A stretch of DNA of 64,000 nucleotides from an uncultured Bacteroidales bacterium (lineage in GTDB: Bacteria > Bacteroidota > Bacteroidia > Bacteroidales > FEN-979), in assembly GCA_903837605.1 (NCBI GenBank), contig CAILVF010000004.1:62001-126000 (forward strand), in the 5' to 3' direction. Below, in pieces: positions 2,864 to 43,912 of this stretch; the stretch's first letter is position 1, and each line of letters opens with the position of its first letter. Under the pieces are notes generated by a model, which was not told the origin of the DNA, made no database searches, and saw only the letters and a program-made list of their open reading frames with translations. The translations under genes were made by a program, and so were the position numbers.

Positions 2864-5800
2864 TTACAGTGAGTTCAAGTCAACAGGTCGCAACATCCCG
2901 AACCAGCGTATGGTTCGCTCGCCTAAGTCAGGAGATTTAACATGAATCAGGTAAACTCCGCCTGAAATAGGGATACCGGCAAAATTTTTGAGATCCCAAT
3001 CAACAGAGGTTTTTGAATCTGTATTGATACCGAGAGTGGATGAACGAGGTTCCGCAATACCGGATTTATCGACGTTAAACTGGCGTATCAAAGTGCCGCT
3101 GAGGTCGAAAATCGTAACGGTGCATTTTGTTGGAAGATTGACGATTTTGATCCTGTTATCCAACTGATTACGTTCATAATCATCATATGCGTAATAAGGA
3201 TTGGGAACAACGTTGATCAGATCCAGATCGCTGCTTGCTTTATCAGCGTTATCCTTACCGGTTGCAATTGAAGCTGTATTAAACATGTAGACAGGGTAAT
3301 TTCTGTTGAGAGTGTCTGTGGATCCCGACGGAAGCGGCAGTGAGTAATACCTCTGATAGGCCCTGTTCACGCGAATCTTTATTGTTACCTGGTTATCCAG
3401 CCAGGGAACTCCATCCACCGAAAGGGGTAATGACGTATAGACAGCAGTTGCGAAGACCAGCTTTTTGTAGATTTCCAGGGTCTGGGAGAACTGGGTCGCA
3501 ATGAATGCACCTGCGTCATAAGCCGGGAATGTTACTTCAAGAGGAGAAACACTGATCTGCTTATGATTCATGATATAGATATAGTGCTGACCGCCGAAGA
3601 CCGGAGTTCCTGAAGGGTTGAAGATTCGGGAAGTGGGATTGAATATCATATCACTTCCATTGTCAGCACCAAGCCAGGAATTTTCACCGAACATTATATT
3701 CAGACGTTCTCCCGTTTCAATGTTTATGGCATATCCGGGGAACCAGCTCATACCGGTCGGGTTAATGTAGTTTGAGTTTTCCTGTGGATTTGTGCTGCTC
3801 ATGCCTGCGACTCCATTAACATTTACAGATGGGGCATTTCTCATATTAAAGGCCGGGGCATGACCCTGTGAAAGTGCCGGGTCAGAGCAGAGTTCAACAA
3901 CACAGCAACGTGTCCATTTTGATTTATCGGGAGTGAAGACAATGTCGACACTCGGGATATCAGTAAGCGAGCAATAATTTCGTTTCTGGTCAAGTGAATA
4001 AGCCGGGCCTACCCTGTTCTGTGTTTGTTCAGCCCCTGCAGTTAACACATAGGGTGCCCAGGTAGCTCCCGGAGCGGTATTAAAAGTTTCTCCGTTTATG
4101 GTGTAAGGAACACTGAGTGACTGAATCTTTCCAAGGCTCTTGTTCGGGTCCCAGGGACGCTTGTTCATGTCATAATCGTTATACTTGGAGAGGGCTGTGT
4201 TTGTCGTGTAATATGTTCCTGCCCTGATCCAGTTCCTAGGGTCAGCAGGAATATCGTCATCAGGAACACCGCTGAGCCATCTCTTGCTGCTGTCGGCATA
4301 AATGGCCGTTGGAGCCCAAAGAAAACCGTTAGTGGCAGATACTCCGGATGAATTGACTGAGTCACCGGGGTAAGGAACCTGGTTGATTGTCAGTGCGAAG
4401 CCCAGGTCAATGAAAAGGGATTCATACGGGTAGATGGTCGTTGTATCGGAGCGGTATGATTTATAATTCGTCAGGTCTATCGCTGTCCAATGACCGAACT
4501 TGATATTTCTGTTAAAAAATGGATTCCCGGTTGGTCCGGTCACCATGGAATCAAGTTTGACCATGTATTTCCCACTGGCAACATTCAGGGGGTCGATGAC
4601 TTTAACAGCAACCGGTCCGTAGCCCACCTTGTAGGTGGCTTTATATGCGATGGGATAGTCGGGGCTGCCGTAAGTATTGTTAACCGAGTCAGCAGGGGGT
4701 TTCATCATAATGGTATCGATTGTACCCTGTGAAAGATCCAGGATCATACCACCATTGCCCTGTCCCTGGATACGTGTGATCACAGGTCCTACGCCATATG
4801 TGGAATTAATAACGGTACCGACCGGAATATGGGGGATTGCTGTATAGGATTTAAGGTTATTACGTCCCCTTAGGTAAGGCTTTTTCTGCCCGTCGAGCCC
4901 GGTAGGATCATTGGGATTGTACTGCTTATAATTATTATATGCATAAGCAATGACCATGAAATAATACTGCTTGTGGTTAATAAAGGTCGGATCTCCCTGG
5001 GAGAACATATCAGTATTGAGAACGAATGAATGCCTGATACCTTCGTCGGTGCCACTGACCATCACCTGGCCGGAGTTTCCACCAAGTAACGGGTCGTACT
5101 GCCAGTCAACCAGGGTTGTAACACCATTCTTTATATCGCATTCTGCAACCTGCCTTGCCTTGGTGGCATCGTCGAGGTCTGCAGCGGATACGGTGGCATC
5201 TTTAAGCTGGAAGATCTGGTAACCTTCGAAATGATATAATGAGTCATAACGTTTTGTGGCAGTTGTCGGGGTCTGAATAGTGGGGTCGTATTCCTGGTAT
5301 TTTTCCTGGTAGTTACTGCCAGGATCATTGGTCTTACGGTTGGTAAGATAAAGAATAAGTTCCTGGTTGAGTTCTTCAATTGTAAGGTCGGGTGCATTGG
5401 GCCCGTTAAGAACTGCAAAACAGTTGTCGAACAGGGTCTGGCATTTATCATCCACCTGGCGGAGAAGTTCGACCGACTCGAGATTTGTCCCAGAAATACT
5501 GCGTGCCCAGGGAATACCTACAGTGATATAGTTACAAGCTCCGGGGAGAAGGGTAAATTCACCGGCCGATTGCATGAAACGACGGTCTGATGGGTTATTG
5601 CCTGCTGTAGCTTCAGTCCAGGTGCCAGGTTTGTTGGGCTCGAGACCGTTGGTTCCCCAGAGGCAGGGGTCGGAATCGCCCGGGAACATGAAATCGCAAA
5701 CGGGGCCGTAGCCACCGCCGTTCAACAGGTTTCCGTTTCCGCCATAAACCATCTTTGTATTGTCAAGCCAGATACCTTTAAGATAATTATAGTACTGGGG

Positions 5801-7228
5801 TGCATAGGCTGGATCCTGCATATAAGCAGGTACACCGGAATTATTATGGTATACAAAACGGCGCATCCCGAAACGCTCATTGTCGGTAATACCATCTCCG
5901 AAATTAATACCGTTGATGGCTTCTGATTTAACGAGTACCGATCCTGAAAATTCTCCGTGGGCTCCCCAGGTCATGTCGATAAGCTGGTTATTATACGTAA
6001 CCATATCGCATTTATTGGGCATGTTTTTAAATGAAGGGCCTTTAATGCCGGGGCCATTGAATGAGGGGTTATCGTACCCGTCGGCATCGAGATACGGACC
6101 CTGGAAAAAGTCAACTCCAACTGCAGGAGGATGGGCTCCGTAAGCTTCTACCTGTCCGGTTCCGTCGATGGGCTTGCCGTTGTAACAATAACCAAGACCG
6201 CGCATAACGTCGCAACCTACGTAGTCATCGCCGGCATAGCCAAGGTCGGGGTCAACCCATTGTGAAAAGTAAGTACCTGAGAGGGTATAGGTGGAGCGGT
6301 TGATAAGTTCGTAAGAGTAAAATGTCATGTTATTGATTTCGTCATTGGTTGCAAAGGCGAAATACTGGGCACGAATTTCCATACCAATTGGTGCGCCATT
6401 GGTTTCAGAGTGATAGTTCCCTTTATCATTATATACGCTCCAGAGGGTCTGGTCGCCTTTGATTACCTGGTCAACCAGGATCCCTGCTGTATCGGAAGCT
6501 TCACCATTGCGGATATGCGCTCTTTTCTGGCGTTCGCCTGCCTTCAGCTTGTTGGGGCAAAGATCGTTGGATATGTCATAATAGGGATAATCACCCTGGG
6601 AAGGTGTGTATATGCCGTCACCATTCTGATCAAAGAAGGGGGCGAGGTATAGCGATTGTCCTTTTGAAGGATCCCCGTTGCCGGGCCAGTTCTGAATGTT
6701 CTTGGGGATGGAATATTCAGGATAGGAGGTGGGGTCTTCGAACCATGCCAGGAATGCCGTGACATCTGCCCTGGTCATAGGATACAGCTGGTCATATTTG
6801 GCACAGACGGCATCGGTTATTGATGCTGTTCCGTCGATGGTAAGCGGGCCGGGCCAGAAGTCATTATTGGTATGGGCAGAAGTAATCGTTGGCCCCTGAC
6901 CATATTTATATGCAGCCAGTTTAAGGTTGTTGTTCATATCGATACCCCCGATCCACAGGGAAAAAGAGAACATCGACATTTTCTTGGAGCCTTTAGGGAC
7001 TTCATACTGGGCGTTCTCGAGGAACCAGCCGTTACCGTAAGAATAAATGAGAGTTCTTACGTTATTTATATCGAGATATTTGTAGGCAGAACCCGGTGTA
7101 CAGCCGGCGGCTGCTTCTTTCAGTGGGGCGCTCTTGGGATGCAACACGGGTTGTTCACGTGCGATGAGTGCATTAGTAGCCAGTAAAAAGCCAAGTGCAA
7201 TCACTGAAACTCGAAATATATTTTTCAT
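2864..7228 (-). CDS. Giant secreted protein with T9SS-like C-terminal domain (1454 aa)
   Basis: The N-terminus is a signal peptide (MKNIFRVSVIALGFLLATNA, then LIARE). The body is rich in aromatic, Asn and Gly residues, with calcium-loop-like DQNGDGIYTPSQGD and DADGYDNPS, consistent with a large extracellular beta-structured protein. Near the C-terminus is the PNP start of a T9SS sorting domain (VVPNPYYAYDDYE), followed by IKIVNLPTKCTVTIFDLSG and GVYLIHVKS. An extra tail GERTIRWFGMLRPVDLNSL follows it and is not typical of the cleaved type-A signal. I recognise no catalytic domain. It lies 51 bases after the TonB receptor gene and 47 before the PorV/PorQ gene, so the three products probably work together at the cell surface. 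The real start may be 7 codons further up (MKTNNIT). Confidence 0.75.
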   Translation of the reverse strand: MKNIFRVSVIALGFLLATNALIAREQPVLHPKSAPLKEAAAGCTPGSAYKYLDINNVRTLIYSYGNGWFLENAQYEVPKGSKKMSMFSFSLWIGGIDMNNNLKLAAYKYGQGPTITSAHTNNDFWPGPLTIDGTASITDAVCAKYDQLYPMTRADVTAFLAWFEDPTSYPEYSIPKNIQNWPGNGDPSKGQSLYLAPFFDQNGDGIYTPSQGDYPYYDISNDLCPNKLKAGERQKRAHIRNGEASDTAGILVDQVIKGDQTLWSVYNDKGNYHSETNGAPIGMEIRAQYFAFATNDEINNMTFYSYELINRSTYTLSGTYFSQWVDPDLGYAGDDYVGCDVMRGLGYCYNGKPIDGTGQVEAYGAHPPAVGVDFFQGPYLDADGYDNPSFNGPGIKGPSFKNMPNKCDMVTYNNQLIDMTWGAHGEFSGSVLVKSEAINGINFGDGITDNERFGMRRFVYHNNSGVPAYMQDPAYAPQYYNYLKGIWLDNTKMVYGGNGNLLNGGGYGPVCDFMFPGDSDPCLWGTNGLEPNKPGTWTEATAGNNPSDRRFMQSAGEFTLLPGACNYITVGIPWARSISGTNLESVELLRQVDDKCQTLFDNCFAVLNGPNAPDLTIEELNQELILYLTNRKTNDPGSNYQEKYQEYDPTIQTPTTATKRYDSLYHFEGYQIFQLKDATVSAADLDDATKARQVAECDIKNGVTTLVDWQYDPLLGGNSGQVMVSGTDEGIRHSFVLNTDMFSQGDPTFINHKQYYFMVIAYAYNNYKQYNPNDPTGLDGQKKPYLRGRNNLKSYTAIPHIPVGTVINSTYGVGPVITRIQGQGNGGMILDLSQGTIDTIMMKPPADSVNNTYGSPDYPIAYKATYKVGYGPVAVKVIDPLNVASGKYMVKLDSMVTGPTGNPFFNRNIKFGHWTAIDLTNYKSYRSDTTTIYPYESLFIDLGFALTINQVPYPGDSVNSSGVSATNGFLWAPTAIYADSSKRWLSGVPDDDIPADPRNWIRAGTYYTTNTALSKYNDYDMNKRPWDPNKSLGKIQSLSVPYTINGETFNTAPGATWAPYVLTAGAEQTQNRVGPAYSLDQKRNYCSLTDIPSVDIVFTPDKSKWTRCCVVELCSDPALSQGHAPAFNMRNAPSVNVNGVAGMSSTNPQENSNYINPTGMSWFPGYAINIETGERLNIMFGENSWLGADNGSDMIFNPTSRIFNPSGTPVFGGQHYIYIMNHKQISVSPLEVTFPAYDAGAFIATQFSQTLEIYKKLVFATAVYTSLPLSVDGVPWLDNQVTIKIRVNRAYQRYYSLPLPSGSTDTLNRNYPVYMFNTASIATGKDNADKASSDLDLINVVPNPYYAYDDYERNQLDNRIKIVNLPTKCTVTIFDLSGTLIRQFNVDKSGIAEPRSSTLGINTDSKTSVDWDLKNFAGIPISGGVYLIHVKSPDLGERTIRWFGMLRPVDLNSL

Positions 7229-7279
7229 GGTAATATTATTTGTTTTCATACGTCAATCTTTATCCTTTAATTTCTCGTC

Positions 7280-30354: not shown

Positions 30355-31107
30355 TTATTTTACGGTGTAATTTTTATCAAAAAATCTCTGATACTTTCTT
30401 ATATCCTTATTTTTATAAAGCACCGGGTAATTCGCAGCGGAGATTACAAAATCACTATAATCCCCGCTTGTTTCAAGCTTGGTAAAAATGTATTTACTGT
30501 CCCTTATGCTAAGAAGGTACTGCATAGCTTTCTGGGCATCATCAAAATTGCTTACGGTAATCATCTCTTCGTTATTTTCGAAAAGCAGGCTGTTTACTTC
30601 GAGGCCGTCGAGATCATGCATCTTGGTATTAAAATCTGCAATTTTAATTTTCAGGGCATTGACATCAACTTTGGAATTATTAACAATAATTATGTAGAAG
30701 TGCACTGCCGCTGAATCAATCGTATAAATGCTTTCGGCTTCTTTAAGCATGGCAGCACTGGAATCAGTCCGGTTTGCAGCAGGTTTATTTGCTTGTCCGC
30801 CCGACAGTGAAGCGAGAACTTCCCTTGCCAGGTTTCCAACAGGACTTTTTGGATAATCCTGCGGGATCTTTGTGAGGGCAACTGTCATGGAGTCTGCAAC
30901 CTCGATTTTTCCCAGCGATAATGCGCGGAGATAGTCGAACCTGGGAAGGAGCGCGGTGTCGTTCTTATACATTGAATGGGCTTCGGCTGCATTACTGATT
31001 ACCATGTAGTATTGCTGGTTCTGGAAGGCCTTGTATGTTATCTCGTACAACTTGGATGATTCGGATTTTTTCGAAGCCAGCTCCTTGAAATAGTTTGGAT
31101 TGACCAT
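30355..31107 (-). CDS. PorW/SprE C-terminal fragment (downstream of in-frame TAG)
   Basis: 250 residues from ATG 31107, but the same frame is open back to 31284 and continues, across one TAG, into the upstream porW fragment; I see no frame change. The 59 extra codons (SIESFETLLHRYPDF and onward) read as TPR-like sequence, so the ATG is probably not a natural start. Content: helical repeats with QYYMVISNAAEAHSMYKNDT and QDYPKSPVGNLAREVLASL, then a compact end domain AVHFYIIIVNNSKVDVNALK to FDKNYTVK typical of SprE/PorW C-termini. Joined, the two pieces give 888 codons, close to Flavobacterium SprE (about 870). Could be a pseudogene, a readthrough product, or a base error. Confidence 0.75.
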   Translation of the reverse strand: MVNPNYFKELASKKSESSKLYEITYKAFQNQQYYMVISNAAEAHSMYKNDTALLPRFDYLRALSLGKIEVADSMTVALTKIPQDYPKSPVGNLAREVLASLSGGQANKPAANRTDSSAAMLKEAESIYTIDSAAVHFYIIIVNNSKVDVNALKIKIADFNTKMHDLDGLEVNSLLFENNEEMITVSNFDDAQKAMQYLLSIRDSKYIFTKLETSGDYSDFVISAANYPVLYKNKDIRKYQRFFDKNYTVK

Positions 31108-31284
31108 CAGTTTAGCGTAATCTGTTTCAGGATATGCGGTCAGAAGCAGGTTGCGGTAATATTCAGATTTTGTATCGTTTTTCAGGCCTTTATAAAGTGT
31201 ATACAGTTCATAATATGTTTGGGCTTTTCTTGTAAAATCAGGATACCTGTGCAGAAGGGTTTCGAAACTTTCAATGGAATGACC

Positions 31285-31287
31285 CTA
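31285..31287 (-). other. In-frame amber codon splitting porW
   Basis: The minus strand reads GGGCTTAATGATTAGGGTCA: codons G-L-N-D-stop-G-H-S. It is codon 579 of a frame that runs from 33021 to 30355 without any other stop. A single base change (for example from TAT or TAC, CAG or AAG) would remove it. Confidence 0.9.
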
Positions 31288-33021
31288 ATCATTAAGCCCG
31301 TCGAAATATATAAAACCCGATTTATAATAGGCATCCATGACTCTTTGATTCGATGCGCTGAGCTTGGCCGGAGTAAGAGGAATATCCTGGTTGTAATATT
31401 TCCTGTCTTTGGGATTAGTTGACTTTGGTTCAGGCTTTTTAGAGACAGTTGTATCGCTGCCTCCGTTAGGCATCAGCTGGGCAGTATCAACAGGGGTTTC
31501 ACCGGTATTCATCACAACCGCTTTATCGGTAAGGAACCAATTATCCTCAAGCCTTCTTCTGCCCCATTTCTTTCCGAAAGCAGAAAACCCACTGGCCATT
31601 GTGGCGGCATTATAAAAATACCAGCGACCCTGGGAAGATGTTGTATTTGTTTTTTCTTCCTGGTTTGCAAACATCTGGTTTTGAAGTTTTGTCTGCTCTT
31701 CCTGTGTTTTTTTTACCTCATTGGCAAGATAGACAGCAATAAGCCTGTCAATGACCTTGGTACGTTGTTCCTCAGTCATAGCTGCCAGTGCCTGCAAACT
31801 GTCTTCACGGCTGATGAGCTGCAACTGCTGAACCAGATCGGTAAGAGTTGCGGTTTTTTTCTTGATGGCTTTATAATTCGCGAAATCGACCGGCAGGAAT
31901 TGCATGGTACTGTCATAATAAGCCTGTGCCCTGGGATAGTTGGGGTATGAAAAGTAGATATCAGCAAGCTGCAGCGCCGATATCGCTCTCTGGTAGTTAT
32001 TGCTCTTGCTTGTACTTACCGACTTCCCAAGGTAATCGATAGCGTGAACAGTGTCTTTGTCGGTGAGGGAGATTTGTGCAAGAGCATAATATACCTGGTC
32101 CAGATAGTCCTTGTTCTTCTCGTCTTTAAGCATTTTGGTCAGCTTTTTGACGATGAAATCCCGGTCGGTGGATTTACTGGTATAGCACTGGGCAAGGTTG
32201 ATCTTTGCATTGAATTCCATTTCATAAGCCGTACTGTGCTTAAGTACCCGGGTATACATTTCTGCCGCCCTGTCGGGGTCATCCTGTTTCTGATAAATCT
32301 GTCCAAGTATGAAATATATCCTTGTCTTGATCTTCACACTTGGGTTTAGTTCAAGTGCCCTGTTGAGGTACGGGACTGCTGCATCATAATTTCTTTGAAG
32401 GATAAAGGAATTCGCATAGGCCAGATTTGCCCCTTCTTCATATTTTGAAGGAGCCTCTCCTTTGTTGATTTTATTCAGCAGCATGTCGAGCATTGGCTCG
32501 CCCCGGTTATAGTCGCCAATCTGAATATTTGACATGGCGAGCCAGTACATCGCATCATATTTGATGTCATTGTCATTATAGGTTTTGATAACGAACTCAA
32601 AGGTCCGCCTGGCCATAGGATAGTCTTTTTTGTAGAAGTAGGATATACCGATAAGCATGTAGGAGTCGTCGATCCATTTGCAGTATTCCTTATGATTGAA
32701 AAACATCGAATGCTTCTGAATGGTTTTAGAGGCCTTCTTGATCGCATTGTCGGCAAACTGCGCAGCCTTGTTCCCCGATTTATCACCGAAATTATATACA
32801 GGCAGGACCAGGGAGAAATTATCTTTCATCTGTGCATCATAATCCTTTATGCCCTGACGCATCAGGTCCATTCCATTCCAGTAAACGTTATAATGTGCGG
32901 TAAGGTTATGATACGTGCGACGTGTCCATGTGTTTTTCTTTGTGGAACATGCACTGAAAAAAAATGTGCCGGTGAGCAATAGAAAAATTCCGGCGAGGGC
33001 GTATTTCTTCGTCGAGATCAA
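31285..33021 (-). CDS. porW: T9SS/gliding lipoprotein PorW/SprE, N-terminal part ended by TAG
   Basis: 578 residues before the TAG. A lipoprotein signal (LLLTGTFFFSAC) precedes STKKNTWTRRTYHNLTAHYN, a hallmark of SprE/PorW, then NVYWNGMDLMRQGIKDYD and many TPR units (for example NPSVKIKTRIYFILGQIYQK, DPDRAAEMYTRVLKHSTAYE). PorW is required for T9SS secretion and gliding and is thought to join the GldKN rings with other machine parts. The start is TTG (MISTKKYALAG); no ATG is available upstream of the signal peptide. A -7 box lies 38 bases before it. The frame continues after the TAG for another 309 codons. It leads the bactofilin-atpZ operon. Confidence 0.88.
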   Translation of the reverse strand: MISTKKYALAGIFLLLTGTFFFSACSTKKNTWTRRTYHNLTAHYNVYWNGMDLMRQGIKDYDAQMKDNFSLVLPVYNFGDKSGNKAAQFADNAIKKASKTIQKHSMFFNHKEYCKWIDDSYMLIGISYFYKKDYPMARRTFEFVIKTYNDNDIKYDAMYWLAMSNIQIGDYNRGEPMLDMLLNKINKGEAPSKYEEGANLAYANSFILQRNYDAAVPYLNRALELNPSVKIKTRIYFILGQIYQKQDDPDRAAEMYTRVLKHSTAYEMEFNAKINLAQCYTSKSTDRDFIVKKLTKMLKDEKNKDYLDQVYYALAQISLTDKDTVHAIDYLGKSVSTSKSNNYQRAISALQLADIYFSYPNYPRAQAYYDSTMQFLPVDFANYKAIKKKTATLTDLVQQLQLISREDSLQALAAMTEEQRTKVIDRLIAVYLANEVKKTQEEQTKLQNQMFANQEEKTNTTSSQGRWYFYNAATMASGFSAFGKKWGRRRLEDNWFLTDKAVVMNTGETPVDTAQLMPNGGSDTTVSKKPEPKSTNPKDRKYYNQDIPLTPAKLSASNQRVMDAYYKSGFIYFDGLND

Positions 33022-37684: not shown

Positions 37685-38683
37685 ATGACCATAACATACT
37701 TTAAGTTAATGCAAGTTCCCAAATTGACTGGAAAACCTCTCAATAAGTGTATTGCTGTCACATTACTGTGTCTGTATATGTTATGGGCTGTTGATGGAAT
37801 CGGGCAGCAATCCAGTTTGATTACCAACTACATGTTCAACAATATGGTCTTCAATCCTGCTTATGCCGGTTTAAGCGGTGGGGTTTCAATGACCGGGCTT
37901 ATTCGCGAGCAATGGTTCGGATTTAAGGACAATGACGGGAACAAGGTTGCGCCGGAGACCATGTTCCTTACTGTAGACGCTCCTATTCGTGTGCTTCACG
38001 GGGGGATTGGCGGGATGGTCTCTCAGGATAAAATAGGATTTTTTAAAAATACCGCGGTGAAACTTGGGTATGCCTATAAGACCGAACTTGGTCCGGGGAT
38101 CTTTTCAGCCGGGTTGCAGGTCGGGTTCCAGAATGGAAAGTTCGATTATTCCCAGTTCAAGGCCGTGAGTGCCGACGACCCCCTGCTTCAGGCCACCCAG
38201 TCAAAAAGCGATATGATATTCGATCTTGGCCTTGGCTTTTTTTACCGGGTACCCGACAAATTTTATGTTGGTTTGTCAGGGGACCAGCTCCTTCAGTCCA
38301 AGGGAAAAAACACCCAGTACAGGCTGCAGCGGACTTACTATTTAACAGGGGGATATCAATGGGATATCCCGAATCATCCGGCTTTTCAGCTTCAGCCCAG
38401 TGCGATTGTTATGTTTGACGGTGCAGCTTTTCAATTCAGCATCAGCGGACTTGTATGGTATAATAACAAATTTTACGGCGGGCTTGCATATCGTTACCAG
38501 GATGCAGTTTCGGTTCTGGCAGGTCTGATGATAAAAGGCTTCAGGGTTGGATTAGCATATGATATCGGCCTGTCAAAAATGATGAACTACAGTAATGGCA
38601 GTTTTGAGGTTATGCTGAATTATGTGCTGAAGATAGAAACTGAAAAATTAAAAAGGAGTTACCGTAACACCAGATTTTTATAA
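37685..38683 (+). CDS. porP: PorP/SprF family type IX secretion outer-membrane protein
   Basis: 332 residues. Signal peptide (CIAVTLLCLYMLWAVDGIG) followed by the PorP/SprF signature: QQSSLITNYMFNNMVFNPAYAG, then a 12-16-strand barrel pattern (GIGGMVSQDKIGFFKNTAVK, GIFSAGLQVGFQNGKFD, KFYVGLSGDQLL, YYLTGGYQWDI) and an amphipathic end. PorP anchors the T9SS/GldJ-type complex at the outer membrane. It sits directly before gldK-gldL-gldM-gldN, the standard order. ATG 37685 gives a longer N-terminus; ATG 37709 (MQVPKLTG) is also plausible. Confidence 0.9.
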   Translation: MTITYFKLMQVPKLTGKPLNKCIAVTLLCLYMLWAVDGIGQQSSLITNYMFNNMVFNPAYAGLSGGVSMTGLIREQWFGFKDNDGNKVAPETMFLTVDAPIRVLHGGIGGMVSQDKIGFFKNTAVKLGYAYKTELGPGIFSAGLQVGFQNGKFDYSQFKAVSADDPLLQATQSKSDMIFDLGLGFFYRVPDKFYVGLSGDQLLQSKGKNTQYRLQRTYYLTGGYQWDIPNHPAFQLQPSAIVMFDGAAFQFSISGLVWYNNKFYGGLAYRYQDAVSVLAGLMIKGFRVGLAYDIGLSKMMNYSNGSFEVMLNYVLKIETEKLKRSYRNTRFL

Positions 38684-38782: not shown

Positions 38783-40150
38783 ATGAAAAAACTGCTCGTG
38801 TTTTTAGTCCTGCTGGTCTTCCTTGGAAGCTGCAGCAACTCAGGAAACGGAGAATTGACCGGGGTTAAGGGAAGGAAACGGTATTATCAACCTGATCCAT
38901 TCGGCATGGTATACATCCCAATGGGTAGCTATACCATGGGAGTAGCCGACGAAGATGTTCCTTATGCCCAGCTCAACAATCCCCGTACAGTGTCGGTTGC
39001 GGCATTTTACATGGACCAGACGGAAATCACTAATAATGAGTATCGCCAATTTGTATATTGGGTGAGGGATTCCATTGCCCGCCGTATCCTGGGTGAGATT
39101 AAGCCTGATCTTTATTTTATAGCAGAGAACAAGAAAACAGGTGAAACTTTTGATCCGCCATTCCTGAACTGGGAAACCAAGATAGAGTGGAATTCTGAAC
39201 AGCAGGATGTCAGGGATGCCCTGAACCAGATGTATCTTCCTGAAAATGAGCGTTATTTCCGGGTTAAGGAAATTGATTCCCGTAAGCTTTATTATGAATA
39301 TTACTTTGTTGACCTTAAAGCTGCCGCACACAAGGAATGGGGAGGCCAGGCTGATCCCAAGGATGCCGGTCTTGCCAATCGGCCCCAGGGTATGAAAGAC
39401 CGTTCGGTTTATGTGCGTAAAGAAGTTATTAACGTATATCCCGATACACTTTGCTGGATACATGATTACGTTTATTCGTTCAACGATCCGTCAACTGAAA
39501 AATACTTCTGGCATCCGGCATACGACAATTACCCCGTAGTCGGAGTTAACTGGAAACAGGCCAATGCTTTCTGCATCTGGAGGACCCAGTTGAAGAACAG
39601 TTTTCTTTATGGAAAGAAAGGGGAATCTTCTATCAGTGAATTCCGCCTGCCTACCGAAGCAGAATGGGAATGGGCTGCCAGGGGAGGATATGACGGCAAT
39701 TCCTATCCATGGGGAGGCCCTTACACCCGCAATGACAAGGGCTGTTTTCTTGCCAACTTTAAACCTCTGAGAGGCAATTACATTGACGACGGTGGATTGC
39801 ATACCGTTATTGTTGCCCACTATCCGGCCAATGAATTTGGCTTGTATGACATGGCGGGCAACGTGGCAGAATGGACCAGGAGTGCTTTCCATCCTTCTTC
39901 CTATAATTTTACCTGGGATCTTAACCCTGATTATACTTACAATGCCAAGGACAGCGATCCTTCGACCTTAAAACGCAAGGTGATCCGCGGAGGTTCATGG
40001 AAGGATATCGCATATTACCTGCGCGTTTCAACAAGAGCATATGAGTTCCAGGATACTTCGAAGTGCTATATCGGGTTCCGCTGTGTCCAGGACTTCCTCG
40101 GGCGTCAGAAGGATGATAATCCCGCAAGAGCCTCCAAGGTTTATAACTAA
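38783..40150 (+). CDS. gldK: Gliding/T9SS lipoprotein GldK (PorK)
   Basis: 455 residues. Lipobox LVFLGSC places the acyl cysteine at about residue 17. The body is a formylglycine-generating-enzyme (SUMF1) fold: FGMVYIPMGSYTMGVADED, FYMDQTEITNNEYRQF, YPVVGVNWKQANAFCIWRT, FRLPTEAEWEWAARGG, GLYDMAGNVAEWTRSAF and VIRGGSWKDIAYYLR. In T9SS it is structural: GldK and GldN form a large ring at the outer membrane. First of the gldKLMN set. Confidence 0.97.
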   Translation: MKKLLVFLVLLVFLGSCSNSGNGELTGVKGRKRYYQPDPFGMVYIPMGSYTMGVADEDVPYAQLNNPRTVSVAAFYMDQTEITNNEYRQFVYWVRDSIARRILGEIKPDLYFIAENKKTGETFDPPFLNWETKIEWNSEQQDVRDALNQMYLPENERYFRVKEIDSRKLYYEYYFVDLKAAAHKEWGGQADPKDAGLANRPQGMKDRSVYVRKEVINVYPDTLCWIHDYVYSFNDPSTEKYFWHPAYDNYPVVGVNWKQANAFCIWRTQLKNSFLYGKKGESSISEFRLPTEAEWEWAARGGYDGNSYPWGGPYTRNDKGCFLANFKPLRGNYIDDGGLHTVIVAHYPANEFGLYDMAGNVAEWTRSAFHPSSYNFTWDLNPDYTYNAKDSDPSTLKRKVIRGGSWKDIAYYLRVSTRAYEFQDTSKCYIGFRCVQDFLGRQKDDNPARASKVYN

Positions 40151-40201: not shown

Positions 40202-41383
40202 ATGGGTCTTCTGAATTTTGTAAAATCTAAGCAGTACAAGCATTTCATGGCCAAACTGTACGGATGGGGTGCATCAGTTGTTATCATCGGTGCTTTGTTT
40301 AAGATCAACCATTATTGGGGCGCAGACTATATGCTGATCGTCGGGTTGGGAACAGAGTCCGTCATATTCTTTTTCTCGGCGTTTGAACCACCCCACGTTG
40401 AACCTGACTGGAGCCTTGTTTATCCCCAGCTTGCCGGGATGTATCATGATACTGATTTCGATGCATCACAGGCCCTTGCTTCCGGAGAAACTGTATCGCA
40501 GGAACTTGACAAAATGCTTTCAAAAGCTAAAATCGGCCCGGAGCTCATTAACAGCCTTGGAGAAGGGTTACGCACTCTCAGCGATACCACTTCAAAACTT
40601 GGCAAAATGTCGGATGCGGCCGTTACAAACGACCAGTTTGTCAACTCGGTAAAACAGGCCACCGACGGAGCCTCAAAACTGAGCGATTCATACAAGAAGA
40701 CTGCAAATGTTCTTGAACAGAGTGTCAGCACTTCCCAGGAACAACTGCAGCATATGCAATCAGCTGCAAAAAGTGCTGCCGGACTGTCAAGCGCATATGC
40801 AGAGGTTGCAAACACCCTGAAGGATGAAATCAGGGTTAACAAGGATATGACTACCAGCATATCCGCCGCCACTGCTTCAGCTAATAAATTCATGGAGAAA
40901 TACAATGAATCGGCCGAGATGCTTGCAAAGACCGCTTCGACCCTGTCTTCTTCCACCTCTGAAAATGAAAATTACAATAAACAGATGAACAGGGTTTCAA
41001 GTAACCTTTCGGCCTTGAATGCCTTATACGAACTTCATCTCCAGGGATCCAACGAACAAATGGAAAATACCAATAAATTTAATGCCATCCTTGGAAAATT
41101 CTCCGACAATCTTACCGATTCAGTTACCAATACGGCCAAGTACAAGGAAAATATTGCCCAGTTAAATAAAGTTGTTGAAAAACAAATGCAAACATCTGCC
41201 AGCCAGGTTGAAGCTTCTTCCCAGATGGAAGACAGCATGAAAAAGTTCCTGGAGAATCTGAATGCATCGGTTACCCAGACAGCCAGGTTCAAGGACCAGG
41301 TAGATGCTCTGGCCAGCAATATTGCAGCATTGAATAAAGTCTATGGCAGTATGCTCACGGCTATGAATGTTTCAATAAAGTAA
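40202..41383 (+). CDS. gldL: T9SS/gliding motor protein GldL (PorL), long form
   Basis: 393 residues. Two transmembrane helices near the N-terminus (SVVIIGALFKINHYWG and YMLIVGLGTESVIFFFSAF). The glutamate inside the second helix, E52, matches the conserved intramembrane Glu of GldL implicated in proton-driven rotation; E62 follows. The rest is a long coiled-coil region with Ser/Thr/Ala-rich heptads and two similar blocks (SALNALYELHLQGSNEQ; AALNKVYGSMLTAMN). It is longer than Flavobacterium GldL (about 215) and closer to, but still above, PorL (about 309). It pairs with GldM to form the inner-membrane motor. Confidence 0.95.
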   Translation: MGLLNFVKSKQYKHFMAKLYGWGASVVIIGALFKINHYWGADYMLIVGLGTESVIFFFSAFEPPHVEPDWSLVYPQLAGMYHDTDFDASQALASGETVSQELDKMLSKAKIGPELINSLGEGLRTLSDTTSKLGKMSDAAVTNDQFVNSVKQATDGASKLSDSYKKTANVLEQSVSTSQEQLQHMQSAAKSAAGLSSAYAEVANTLKDEIRVNKDMTTSISAATASANKFMEKYNESAEMLAKTASTLSSSTSENENYNKQMNRVSSNLSALNALYELHLQGSNEQMENTNKFNAILGKFSDNLTDSVTNTAKYKENIAQLNKVVEKQMQTSASQVEASSQMEDSMKKFLENLNASVTQTARFKDQVDALASNIAALNKVYGSMLTAMNVSIK

Positions 41384-41437: not shown

Positions 41438-43036
41438 ATGGCTGGATATAAAGAGACACCGAGGCAAAAGATGATTGGGATGATGTATCTCGTGCTTACT
41501 GCATTGCTCGCGCTCAACGTCTCGAAACAAATGCTTGATGCATTCATTGTGGTTAATGAAACCATGGAGAATACGAACTCAAATTTTAATAAAAAGTTAG
41601 ATAATACTATCTCCAAATTCAAGATCCAGTACCAGATGAACCCGAATAAAGTGGGGCCGTACTGGGATAGAGCCCAAAAGGCAAGGCAGCTGTCAGAAAA
41701 TCTGGCAAATTATATTGACAGTCTGAAGTATGCTGTTATCGCCAGGACTGATGGGATTTCATTTGCAGAGGCAAAAAAGGTACCATTGTCAGATGTCGAA
41801 AATAAAGACAAGTATACAGAGCCTACGAACTTCTTCATCGGCAGCTCACATGACGGTTCAACCGGTGAAGCAAGGAAGCTGAAGGATAAAATCGAAGCCT
41901 ATAAGAAAGGAATGGTCGCCCTGCTGGATGCTAAATACCAGGGAACAATAAAACTTGGTCTCAAAACCGAAGGCCAGTTCAAAGATTCCTATCACAACTC
42001 CCAGAACTGGGAAATGCATAATTTCTTCCAGACGATCCTGGCTGCTGCAGTCACCATTCTTAACCAGATCAAAGCCGATGTTTATAATGCCGAGTTCGAT
42101 GTCGTAAATAACCTTTATGCGGCAGTATCGGCCGAAGACTGGAAATTTGACGCCATCAGGGCAAAGGTCATCCCTAAAAGCAATTACGTATTTCTCGGTG
42201 AGGAATACCAGGCCGAAATCCTCGTAGCTGCTTATGATACCAAAGCCAACCCGAATGTACGCTATGTTCTCGGTTCGGATTCACTTACTCCTGCGAATTT
42301 TAAAAATGCCACGCCTATAACAGGAGAGAATGGGGTAGTGACCCTTAAACTCGGAGGTTCTTCAGAAGGCCTGAAAAAATTTGCCGGGATCATTAAAATT
42401 GTAAGCCCCTTAGGCGATACCATGACTTTCCATTTCAAAGACGAGTTCATTGTTGCAAAACCGGCCCTTACTGTTTCCCCGTCCAAGATGAACGTATTTT
42501 ATATCGGGGTTGACAACCCGGTCTCTATCACTGTCCCGGGAGGCCCTGAAAGGGTTACACCTACAATTTCCGTTGGTAATATCCGCCAGGAAGGGAAAGA
42601 TTATATCGTTAGCGGACTCCCCCTGAATACCAGGGAAGCCGTGATCACGGTAACCGCTGTGTTCTCAGGGAAATCAAAGAATATGGGTTCTTATACAGCC
42701 CGTTTAAAGCGCGTACCCGATCCAATTGCGAGGATCGCCGGAAAAAACGAAGGTGTCATCTCGAAAAGTATTGTGCTTGCCAGCCCTTACCTTGTCCCCG
42801 AAATGCAGGTTGGATTTGATTTTGACCTGAAATACGTAGTTACATCCTACAACTTCGTTACCGATATAACCGGCGATATCCTTGAATACAAAGTCCAGGG
42901 GAACAGGCTCACACCTGAAATAGTGAGGCTGATCACCAATGCCAAAAAGAACAAACGCATCTGGTTCGAAAATATCACGGTAAAAGGACCTGACGGCGAG
43001 CGTACCATTCCTTCTATTAACTTGAAAATCAATTAA
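41438..43036 (+). CDS. gldM: T9SS/gliding motor protein GldM (PorM)
   Basis: 532 residues. A short cytosolic start (MAGYKETPRQKMIGMMYLVL) leads into one transmembrane helix (LTALLALNVSKQMLDAFIVV), then a long periplasmic part with an N-terminal helical bundle (about 40-220) and three beta-rich domains, as in PorM/GldM structures. It spans the periplasm as a dimer, linking the GldL motor to the GldKN ring. Standard position between gldL and gldN; gap of 21 bases to gldN. Confidence 0.97.
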   Translation: MAGYKETPRQKMIGMMYLVLTALLALNVSKQMLDAFIVVNETMENTNSNFNKKLDNTISKFKIQYQMNPNKVGPYWDRAQKARQLSENLANYIDSLKYAVIARTDGISFAEAKKVPLSDVENKDKYTEPTNFFIGSSHDGSTGEARKLKDKIEAYKKGMVALLDAKYQGTIKLGLKTEGQFKDSYHNSQNWEMHNFFQTILAAAVTILNQIKADVYNAEFDVVNNLYAAVSAEDWKFDAIRAKVIPKSNYVFLGEEYQAEILVAAYDTKANPNVRYVLGSDSLTPANFKNATPITGENGVVTLKLGGSSEGLKKFAGIIKIVSPLGDTMTFHFKDEFIVAKPALTVSPSKMNVFYIGVDNPVSITVPGGPERVTPTISVGNIRQEGKDYIVSGLPLNTREAVITVTAVFSGKSKNMGSYTARLKRVPDPIARIAGKNEGVISKSIVLASPYLVPEMQVGFDFDLKYVVTSYNFVTDITGDILEYKVQGNRLTPEIVRLITNAKKNKRIWFENITVKGPDGERTIPSINLKIN

Positions 43037-43057: not shown

Positions 43058-43912
43058 ATGAAAAGGATAGTTTTCATTGCATTTGTGGCAGTGCTTGTGA
43101 CAGGGGTCAGGCTGACTTCCTATGCACAGGTTCTGGAAGCTCCCCCAAGGGATGGTGTTTATGACAGGACCGTTATTACCCAGGTTCAGCCGATACCTTA
43201 TCCATACCTTAGGGAAGCTGATATCACCTGGACCAAGAGGGTCTGGAGAGTCATCGACATGCGTGAGAAGATGAACCAGCCCTTCTACTTCCCCGAAACT
43301 CCCCAGAACCAGTGGAAAAGCTTTATGCAGATCATTCTTGACGGTATGAAGGAAGGGACTATCCAGGCCTACTCCGCCGAAACCGACCTCTTCCTGGTGC
43401 CTTTAGCCCATAAAGACCTTATGGACCAGCTTGAGACCAAGCAAAAACTGCACCTGAAACGCCCCGACAATCCTGATATCGAATTTGACACGGTGATTTC
43501 CAAAATTTTCAATGCCTCCGACGTAAAGCAACTCAGGGTCAAGGAAGACTGGTATTTCGACAAGCAAAGATCGGTTCTTGAAGTGCGTATCCTTGGAATC
43601 TGCCCCATGACGGAGAGCTTTGCCGAGGACGGATCAACCCGTGGTTACAAACCCCTGTTCTGGATCTATTTCCCCGATTGCCGCAACCTGTTTGCACGCA
43701 GCGAACAGTTCAACCTGAGAAATGGAGTTGCCGGCCGGCTCACTTACGATGATGTGTTTATGAAAAGGATTTTCTCCAGCTATGTGTATAAGGAAGAGAA
43801 TGTTTATGACCGTCAGATCAGCGATTATGCTACCGGTGTTGACGCATTGCTGGAATCAGAAAGGGCTAAAAACAAGATCCTCGAGTTTGAATCAAGCCTC
43901 TGGGAATACTAA
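43058..43912 (+). CDS. gldN: T9SS/gliding protein GldN (PorN)
   Basis: 284 residues with a signal peptide (MKRIVFIAFVAVLVTGVRLT, cleavage near SYAQ). Family landmarks: READITWTKRVWRVIDMREK, then NQPFYFPETPQNQWKSFMQI, VKQLRVKEDWYFDKQRSVLE and LFWIYFPDCRNLFA. GldN is a periplasmic partner of GldK in the outer-membrane ring. Last gene of the set, followed 28 bases later by a strong terminator. Confidence 0.96.
   Translation: MKRIVFIAFVAVLVTGVRLTSYAQVLEAPPRDGVYDRTVITQVQPIPYPYLREADITWTKRVWRVIDMREKMNQPFYFPETPQNQWKSFMQIILDGMKEGTIQAYSAETDLFLVPLAHKDLMDQLETKQKLHLKRPDNPDIEFDTVISKIFNASDVKQLRVKEDWYFDKQRSVLEVRILGICPMTESFAEDGSTRGYKPLFWIYFPDCRNLFARSEQFNLRNGVAGRLTYDDVFMKRIFSSYVYKEENVYDRQISDYATGVDALLESERAKNKILEFESSLWEY

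Follow-up and report, generated by a model that had tools for sequence, protein, structure and literature searches.

PorW is an outer-membrane lipoprotein that acts in the periplasm, according to one report (PMC8754138). The F. johnsoniae protein, SprE, has 13 ordered TPR units, and its removal abolishes the function of the type IX secretion system (T9SS) and secretion, as described in a second report (PMC10994853). SprE (PDB 8gl8, chain I) is the best solved relative of the PorW studied here and belongs to the same family (sequence match, E 9.5e-61). We examined the porW/sprE gene in a 64,000-nucleotide stretch of DNA, called the window, from a draft genome of an uncultured Bacteroidales bacterium. 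This gene differs from the PorW/SprE family by one in-frame TAG, which sequence alignment with 8gl8 chain I placed at Tyr597 of F. johnsoniae SprE, whereas the relatives seen carry no stop. Very probably, the TAG is a nonsense change of one base, isolated and very recent, which occurs in one draft assembly and in none of the relatives seen; it is neither programmed nor a conserved feature of porW/sprE.

The interrupted gene was read codon by codon. On the minus strand, positions 33021..30355 form a single frame of 889 codons in which the only stops are codons 579 and 889, so that the ORF listing gave two ORFs in one frame, one of 578 aa with a TTG start (31285..33021) and one of 250 aa with an ATG start (30355..31107). 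TTG is the earliest start codon in the porW frame. Codons 1-578 (31288..33021, minus strand) encode the lipoprotein signal, the first TPR array, the finger region, and the first helix of the second array, as assigned from the ORF list, the NCBIfam PorW/SprE profile (NF052312), the alignment of relatives, and a model of an intact congener protein. Codon 579 is the in-frame TAG (31285..31287, minus strand), and the remainder of the gene, codons 580-888 with the terminal TAA (30355..31284, minus strand), encodes what is left of the second helical (TPR) array, followed by an alpha/beta domain at the C terminus. The probability of 309 open codons after the TAG was about 4e-8 by base composition, so the frame beyond the TAG is not due to chance. 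When read through, the frame matched NF052312 with 653 bits (cut-off 250) over positions 2-715 of the 716-position profile. Taken by itself, the 578-aa piece scored 520.8 bits, also over the cut-off of 250, with a match reaching profile position 560, while the 250-aa piece alone scored 54.1 bits, which was below that cut-off, over positions 624-715. These results bore out the initial annotation, which had claimed that both ORFs share a frame that is open except for the TAG at 31285-31287, and that the gene is porW/sprE with PorW-like sequence after the TAG. The lipobox ends in SAC (FFFSAC in this protein) and is followed by STKKNT, with Cys and Ser at +2 as in a lipoprotein signal; this Cys-Ser was retained in the six relatives compared and was invariant across an alignment of 23 relatives. 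With the TAG at codon 579, this PorW is not encoded by a single uninterrupted frame containing both TPR arrays. The genome is a 4.15-Mb draft in 93 contigs, 97.4% complete, and its one porW copy carries the TAG.

The occurrence of the stop was compared with that in related genomes, as the initial annotation had suggested. Among 61 genomes searched (this genome and 60 relatives), 58 had a PorW match, and a stop inside the match was found in this genome only; none of the 57 other matching genomes, including all seven congeners, had one. No match was obtained in G029, G044, or G047, and some matches were partial (G014, residues 791-886 only). At the level of the class, 237 of 247 genomes matched PorW, and among the best 150 of these 237 matches this genome alone had a stop, the other 149 having none; the shortest open frame among the same 150 was 736 aa. 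Codon 579 was Tyr in all 29 aligned family relatives (16 TAT and 13 TAC), and in the closest relative, with 93% amino-acid identity, it was TAT. The 29 relatives came from 36 family genomes searched, with seven genomes outside the alignment; 11 loci (L031-L041) were left out of it, ten being copies of included contigs and L038 representing one further genome. In 27 more distant sequences, codon 579 was Tyr in eight and another residue in the rest, and a stop in none. It had also been considered that the two halves might always be separate genes in orthologues; in none of the 57 other matching genomes was PorW divided into separate genes here. Where a match fell into two or three pieces, these lay on one open frame (for example, G017 and G058); in G011, G024, and G053 the match spanned two contigs, and the break fell at another place in PorW. 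All of the first eleven named relatives were labelled as metagenome-assembled genomes, five of them with LacPavin isolate names. As far as these searches reach, the TAG is private to this assembly.

Selection on either side of the TAG was then estimated. Between this genome and the closest relative, dN/dS was 0.052 upstream of the TAG, 0.033 in codons 580-737, and 0.126 in codons 738-888, and the corresponding values between two intact congeners were 0.060, 0.084, and 0.072. When changes were polarised with a third congener, codons 580-737 showed 24 synonymous and 3 nonsynonymous changes on the lineage of this genome, which limits the unconstrained share of its branch to at most about 9%. Codons 738-888 showed 15 synonymous and 13 nonsynonymous changes on this lineage and 18 and 8 on the sister lineage, and unconstrained time was bounded at 35% in the tail by itself and at 17% when codons 580-888 were pooled. 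The substitution pattern indicates that codons 580-888 were under purifying selection until very recently, with no clear decay. The excess in the tail may be a weak hint of relaxation, but it could also be ordinary, because 738-888 is the region that F. johnsoniae can lose. Relaxation after the lesion was thus absent in codons 580-737 and weakly hinted at in codons 738-888; a lesion of very recent date would not show up in this way. Since the remainder is still constrained, the stop is young, or is absent from the cell, or is bypassed.

Bypass by natural readthrough or suppression of UAG, by which full PorW would still be made from the interrupted frame, would explain the constrained remainder, but recency or an error would explain it too. 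An amber suppressor tRNA had been proposed as something to look for, and none of the 39 tRNAs found had a CUA anticodon (anticodons read by ARAGORN; best 150 of 175 candidates scored). Ile-GAT, Ala-TGC, and Gln-TTG were missing among these 39, so the tRNA set is incomplete, and with 150 of 175 candidates scored, a UAG-reading tRNA could lie in unassembled DNA. The prfA gene (RF1) was intact, and PylS had no match in the genome. A second prfA-family match with one TAG, taken as a candidate interrupted gene, was rejected, as the TAG was the normal terminal stop of that gene (prfB by eye) and the match overran it by three residues. TAG served as an ordinary stop, ending 93 of the 513 frames that reached 300 codons or more in 1.128 Mb, and the genes ending in TAG include prfB and thrS (both named by eye). 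Together with the absence of a CUA tRNA among those found and the presence of RF1, this agrees with the earlier view that code reassignment is unlikely. The RNA of 111 bases beginning just ahead of the TAG folded no better than shuffled sequences (z 0.11), and no Rfam family matched around the TAG. No relative seen shared the TAG, which also argues against readthrough.

A genome that reads through TAG should contain more interrupted genes. A strict, reference-free scan for same-frame interruptions, covering 1.128 Mb (27% of the genome), gave 41 raw candidates, of which 38 were dropped in bulk by the rule that another frame scored as coding there. The three left were porW, the boundary between thrS and infC, and the place where a peptidase gene ends normally; the last two were rejected as lesions, judged by eye. 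No stop-interrupted gene other than porW was therefore found in the scanned 1.128 Mb, and bypass of the TAG was unsupported. On this evidence, natural readthrough or suppression is very unlikely. A more elaborate version, in which regulated readthrough yields two forms of PorW, a short lipoprotein capping the SprA translocon and a full one permitting secretion, is barely credible; if it were true, the level of secretion would be governed by the efficiency of termination.

Two genes met in this survey had features of their own. At L132:17612 (C1:99612, outside the window), thrS ends in TAG and infC follows in the same frame (both named by eye), and the 49 codons after the thrS TAG contain no ATG, GTG, or TTG. 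Use of a rare start codon is known for infC elsewhere, and from its sequence this infC may use one as well. At L100 (prfB by eye), an early stop is present and the main frame goes on in another frame, a pattern that resembles the programmed frameshift known in prfB.

The internal ATG at 31105..31107 (minus strand; Met639) was considered as the start of a second half that joins the first, so that PorW would work as two pieces, an option raised in the initial annotation. The ATG at 31107 opens the 250-aa ORF, and Met is likewise present at this position in the closest relative. However, Leu occupies the position in 27 of the 29 family relatives aligned, with Met in L002 and L007, and the codon is not a conserved start. 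The 250-aa piece also has no hydrophobic signal at its N terminus, its maximum 15-residue mean being 0.15 in comparison with 2.15 at the true N terminus; it should therefore not reach the periplasm, where PorW works. In addition, the 59 codons that separate the TAG from the ATG would be lost, and they lie within the constrained part. A two-piece protein thus has next to no chance of being correct.

The position of the TAG in the protein was examined using an AlphaFold2 model of an intact congener PorW (mean pLDDT 82.6, pTM 0.55). The model shows a helical array from residue 551 to about 740, mostly at high confidence, followed by an alpha/beta domain, and residue 579 opens the second helix of this second helical array. 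The best structural match to the model was 8gl8_I (E 1.6e-24), with a TM-score of only 0.41-0.56. If the TAG is real, translation would end after residue 578, and the truncated PorW, still a lipoprotein of the outer membrane, would keep its N-terminal part and the finger region and lack most of the second TPR array. The N-terminal part that it would retain corresponds to the part that contacts SprA in F. johnsoniae.

A naturally shortened PorW, in which the 578-residue product functions alone, draws on three statements in PMC10994853: F. johnsoniae tolerates the loss of SprE residues 759-870, the C-terminal hub-binding region of P. gingivalis PorW is reported as not required, and the parts of SprE that contact SprA are N-terminal. 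However, the TAG maps about 160 residues ahead of the tolerated cut, inside the ordered part of the protein. Open frames as short as 578 codons did not occur among the best 150 of the 237 class-wide matches, and the lost stretch 580-737 is the most constrained in comparison with the closest relative (dN/dS 0.033). We consider it highly unlikely that the short product suffices. Because a cut at the position of SprE residue 597 also removes some 160 ordered residues beyond the tolerated loss, we infer that it would give a null or badly impaired protein, and type IX secretion would probably be lost if the TAG is real.

The other T9SS genes checked were porP, gldK-N, and sprA. Five of them lie in the window on the plus strand: a porP/sprF family gene (37685..38683; TIGR03519), porK/gldK (38783..40150; TIGR03525), porL/gldL (40202..41383; TIGR03513), porM/gldM (41438..43036; TIGR03517), and porN/gldN (43058..43912; TIGR03523). 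Profile matches over all five showed them to be intact, as the initial annotation had stated, and sprA was intact elsewhere in the genome. At least 139 T9SS C-terminal sorting signals (TIGR04183) were found in the genome (best 150 of 166 candidates scored), and none of the 139 had a stop inside the matched stretch. At first sight, this looked like a large set for a 4.1-Mb genome. In the window, a 1461-aa protein (2864-7249, minus strand) weakly matched the end of PorZ with its residues 1334-1442 (25 bits, cut-off 260), in line with a T9SS-type end domain.

On contig C4, 133 kb was also compared with orthologous genes of congeners, with 273 of 586 reference congener genes found in the sampled DNA. 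The comparison left two lesions, the porW TAG and a one-base frameshift. The frameshift comes just after seven consecutive T residues in a gene named by eye as a trmB-like tRNA methyltransferase (L109:5260-5924; C4:131260-131924), outside the window and 38 kb from the porW TAG, and two congeners are open there. Other stops flagged against congener ORFs were rejected as alignment ends or antisense shadow ORFs; those at C4:52340, 92060, and 130320/130480 lie where a different, longer coding frame is present, and shadow matches from the first congener-ORF comparison alone were dismissed by inspection. A second apparent frameshift on C4 was, by inspection, an artefact of the G006 frame, which extends some 90 codons upstream of porW. 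Outside the window, an adjacent pair of genes in different frames (L110:2939-4939 and 4992-6992; C4:148939-150939 and 150992-152992) each matched the same 667-aa congener proteins over their full length with 81-92% identity, and the pair is also present in two congeners.

That the dominant strain carries a genuine and recent nonsense mutation, by which type IX secretion is lost or weakened, is possible at somewhat less than an even chance. A single change from TAT can give the stop, and T>G is not rare on the lineage of this genome, where it made up 7 of 134 polarised porW changes, a share that does not separate error from mutation. The predicted product would be without most of the second helical array, F. 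johnsoniae without SprE has no T9SS function (PMC10994853), and the tail 738-888 gives the weak hint of relaxation described above. Nevertheless, no decay was seen in the 139 cargo signals or in the further T9SS genes checked, and codons 580-737 stayed under selection until very recently. That the assembly carries a wrong or minority-strain base has about an even chance, and this was slightly favoured over a real mutation because the checked apparatus is otherwise kept and a second lone lesion lies on the same contig. On the plus strand, the comparison of this genome with the closest relative showed ACCA changed to ACCC, a run-extending change, to which little weight was given. Short-read miscalls can produce such changes. 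Among the four options offered in the initial annotation, sequencing or strain error and recent pseudogenisation therefore survive, while the two-piece protein was contradicted and readthrough was left without support.

These data call for caution: when a draft genome shows a single in-frame stop in a core secretion gene, neither recoding nor loss of the system should be concluded before relatives and reads are checked. If the TAG is real, the strain would be a natural test of whether PorW cut inside the second TPR array supports type IX secretion with some 139 cargo signals.

The locus resembles known recoding systems (amber suppression, pyrrolysine, and code 15) in having an in-frame TAG with a constrained continuation. 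However, it differs from them in that no cognate tRNA was found, PylS had no match, RF1 is present, TAG is an ordinary stop, and the sampled DNA held no second gene of this kind. In comparison with an ordinary single-base nonsense lesion in one draft genome, whether a sequencing error or a recent pseudogene, no difference was found: the porW TAG is likewise private, confined to a single codon, and accompanied by no clear decay. It looks like a lesion of this already known, ordinary kind, and not a new way of making PorW.
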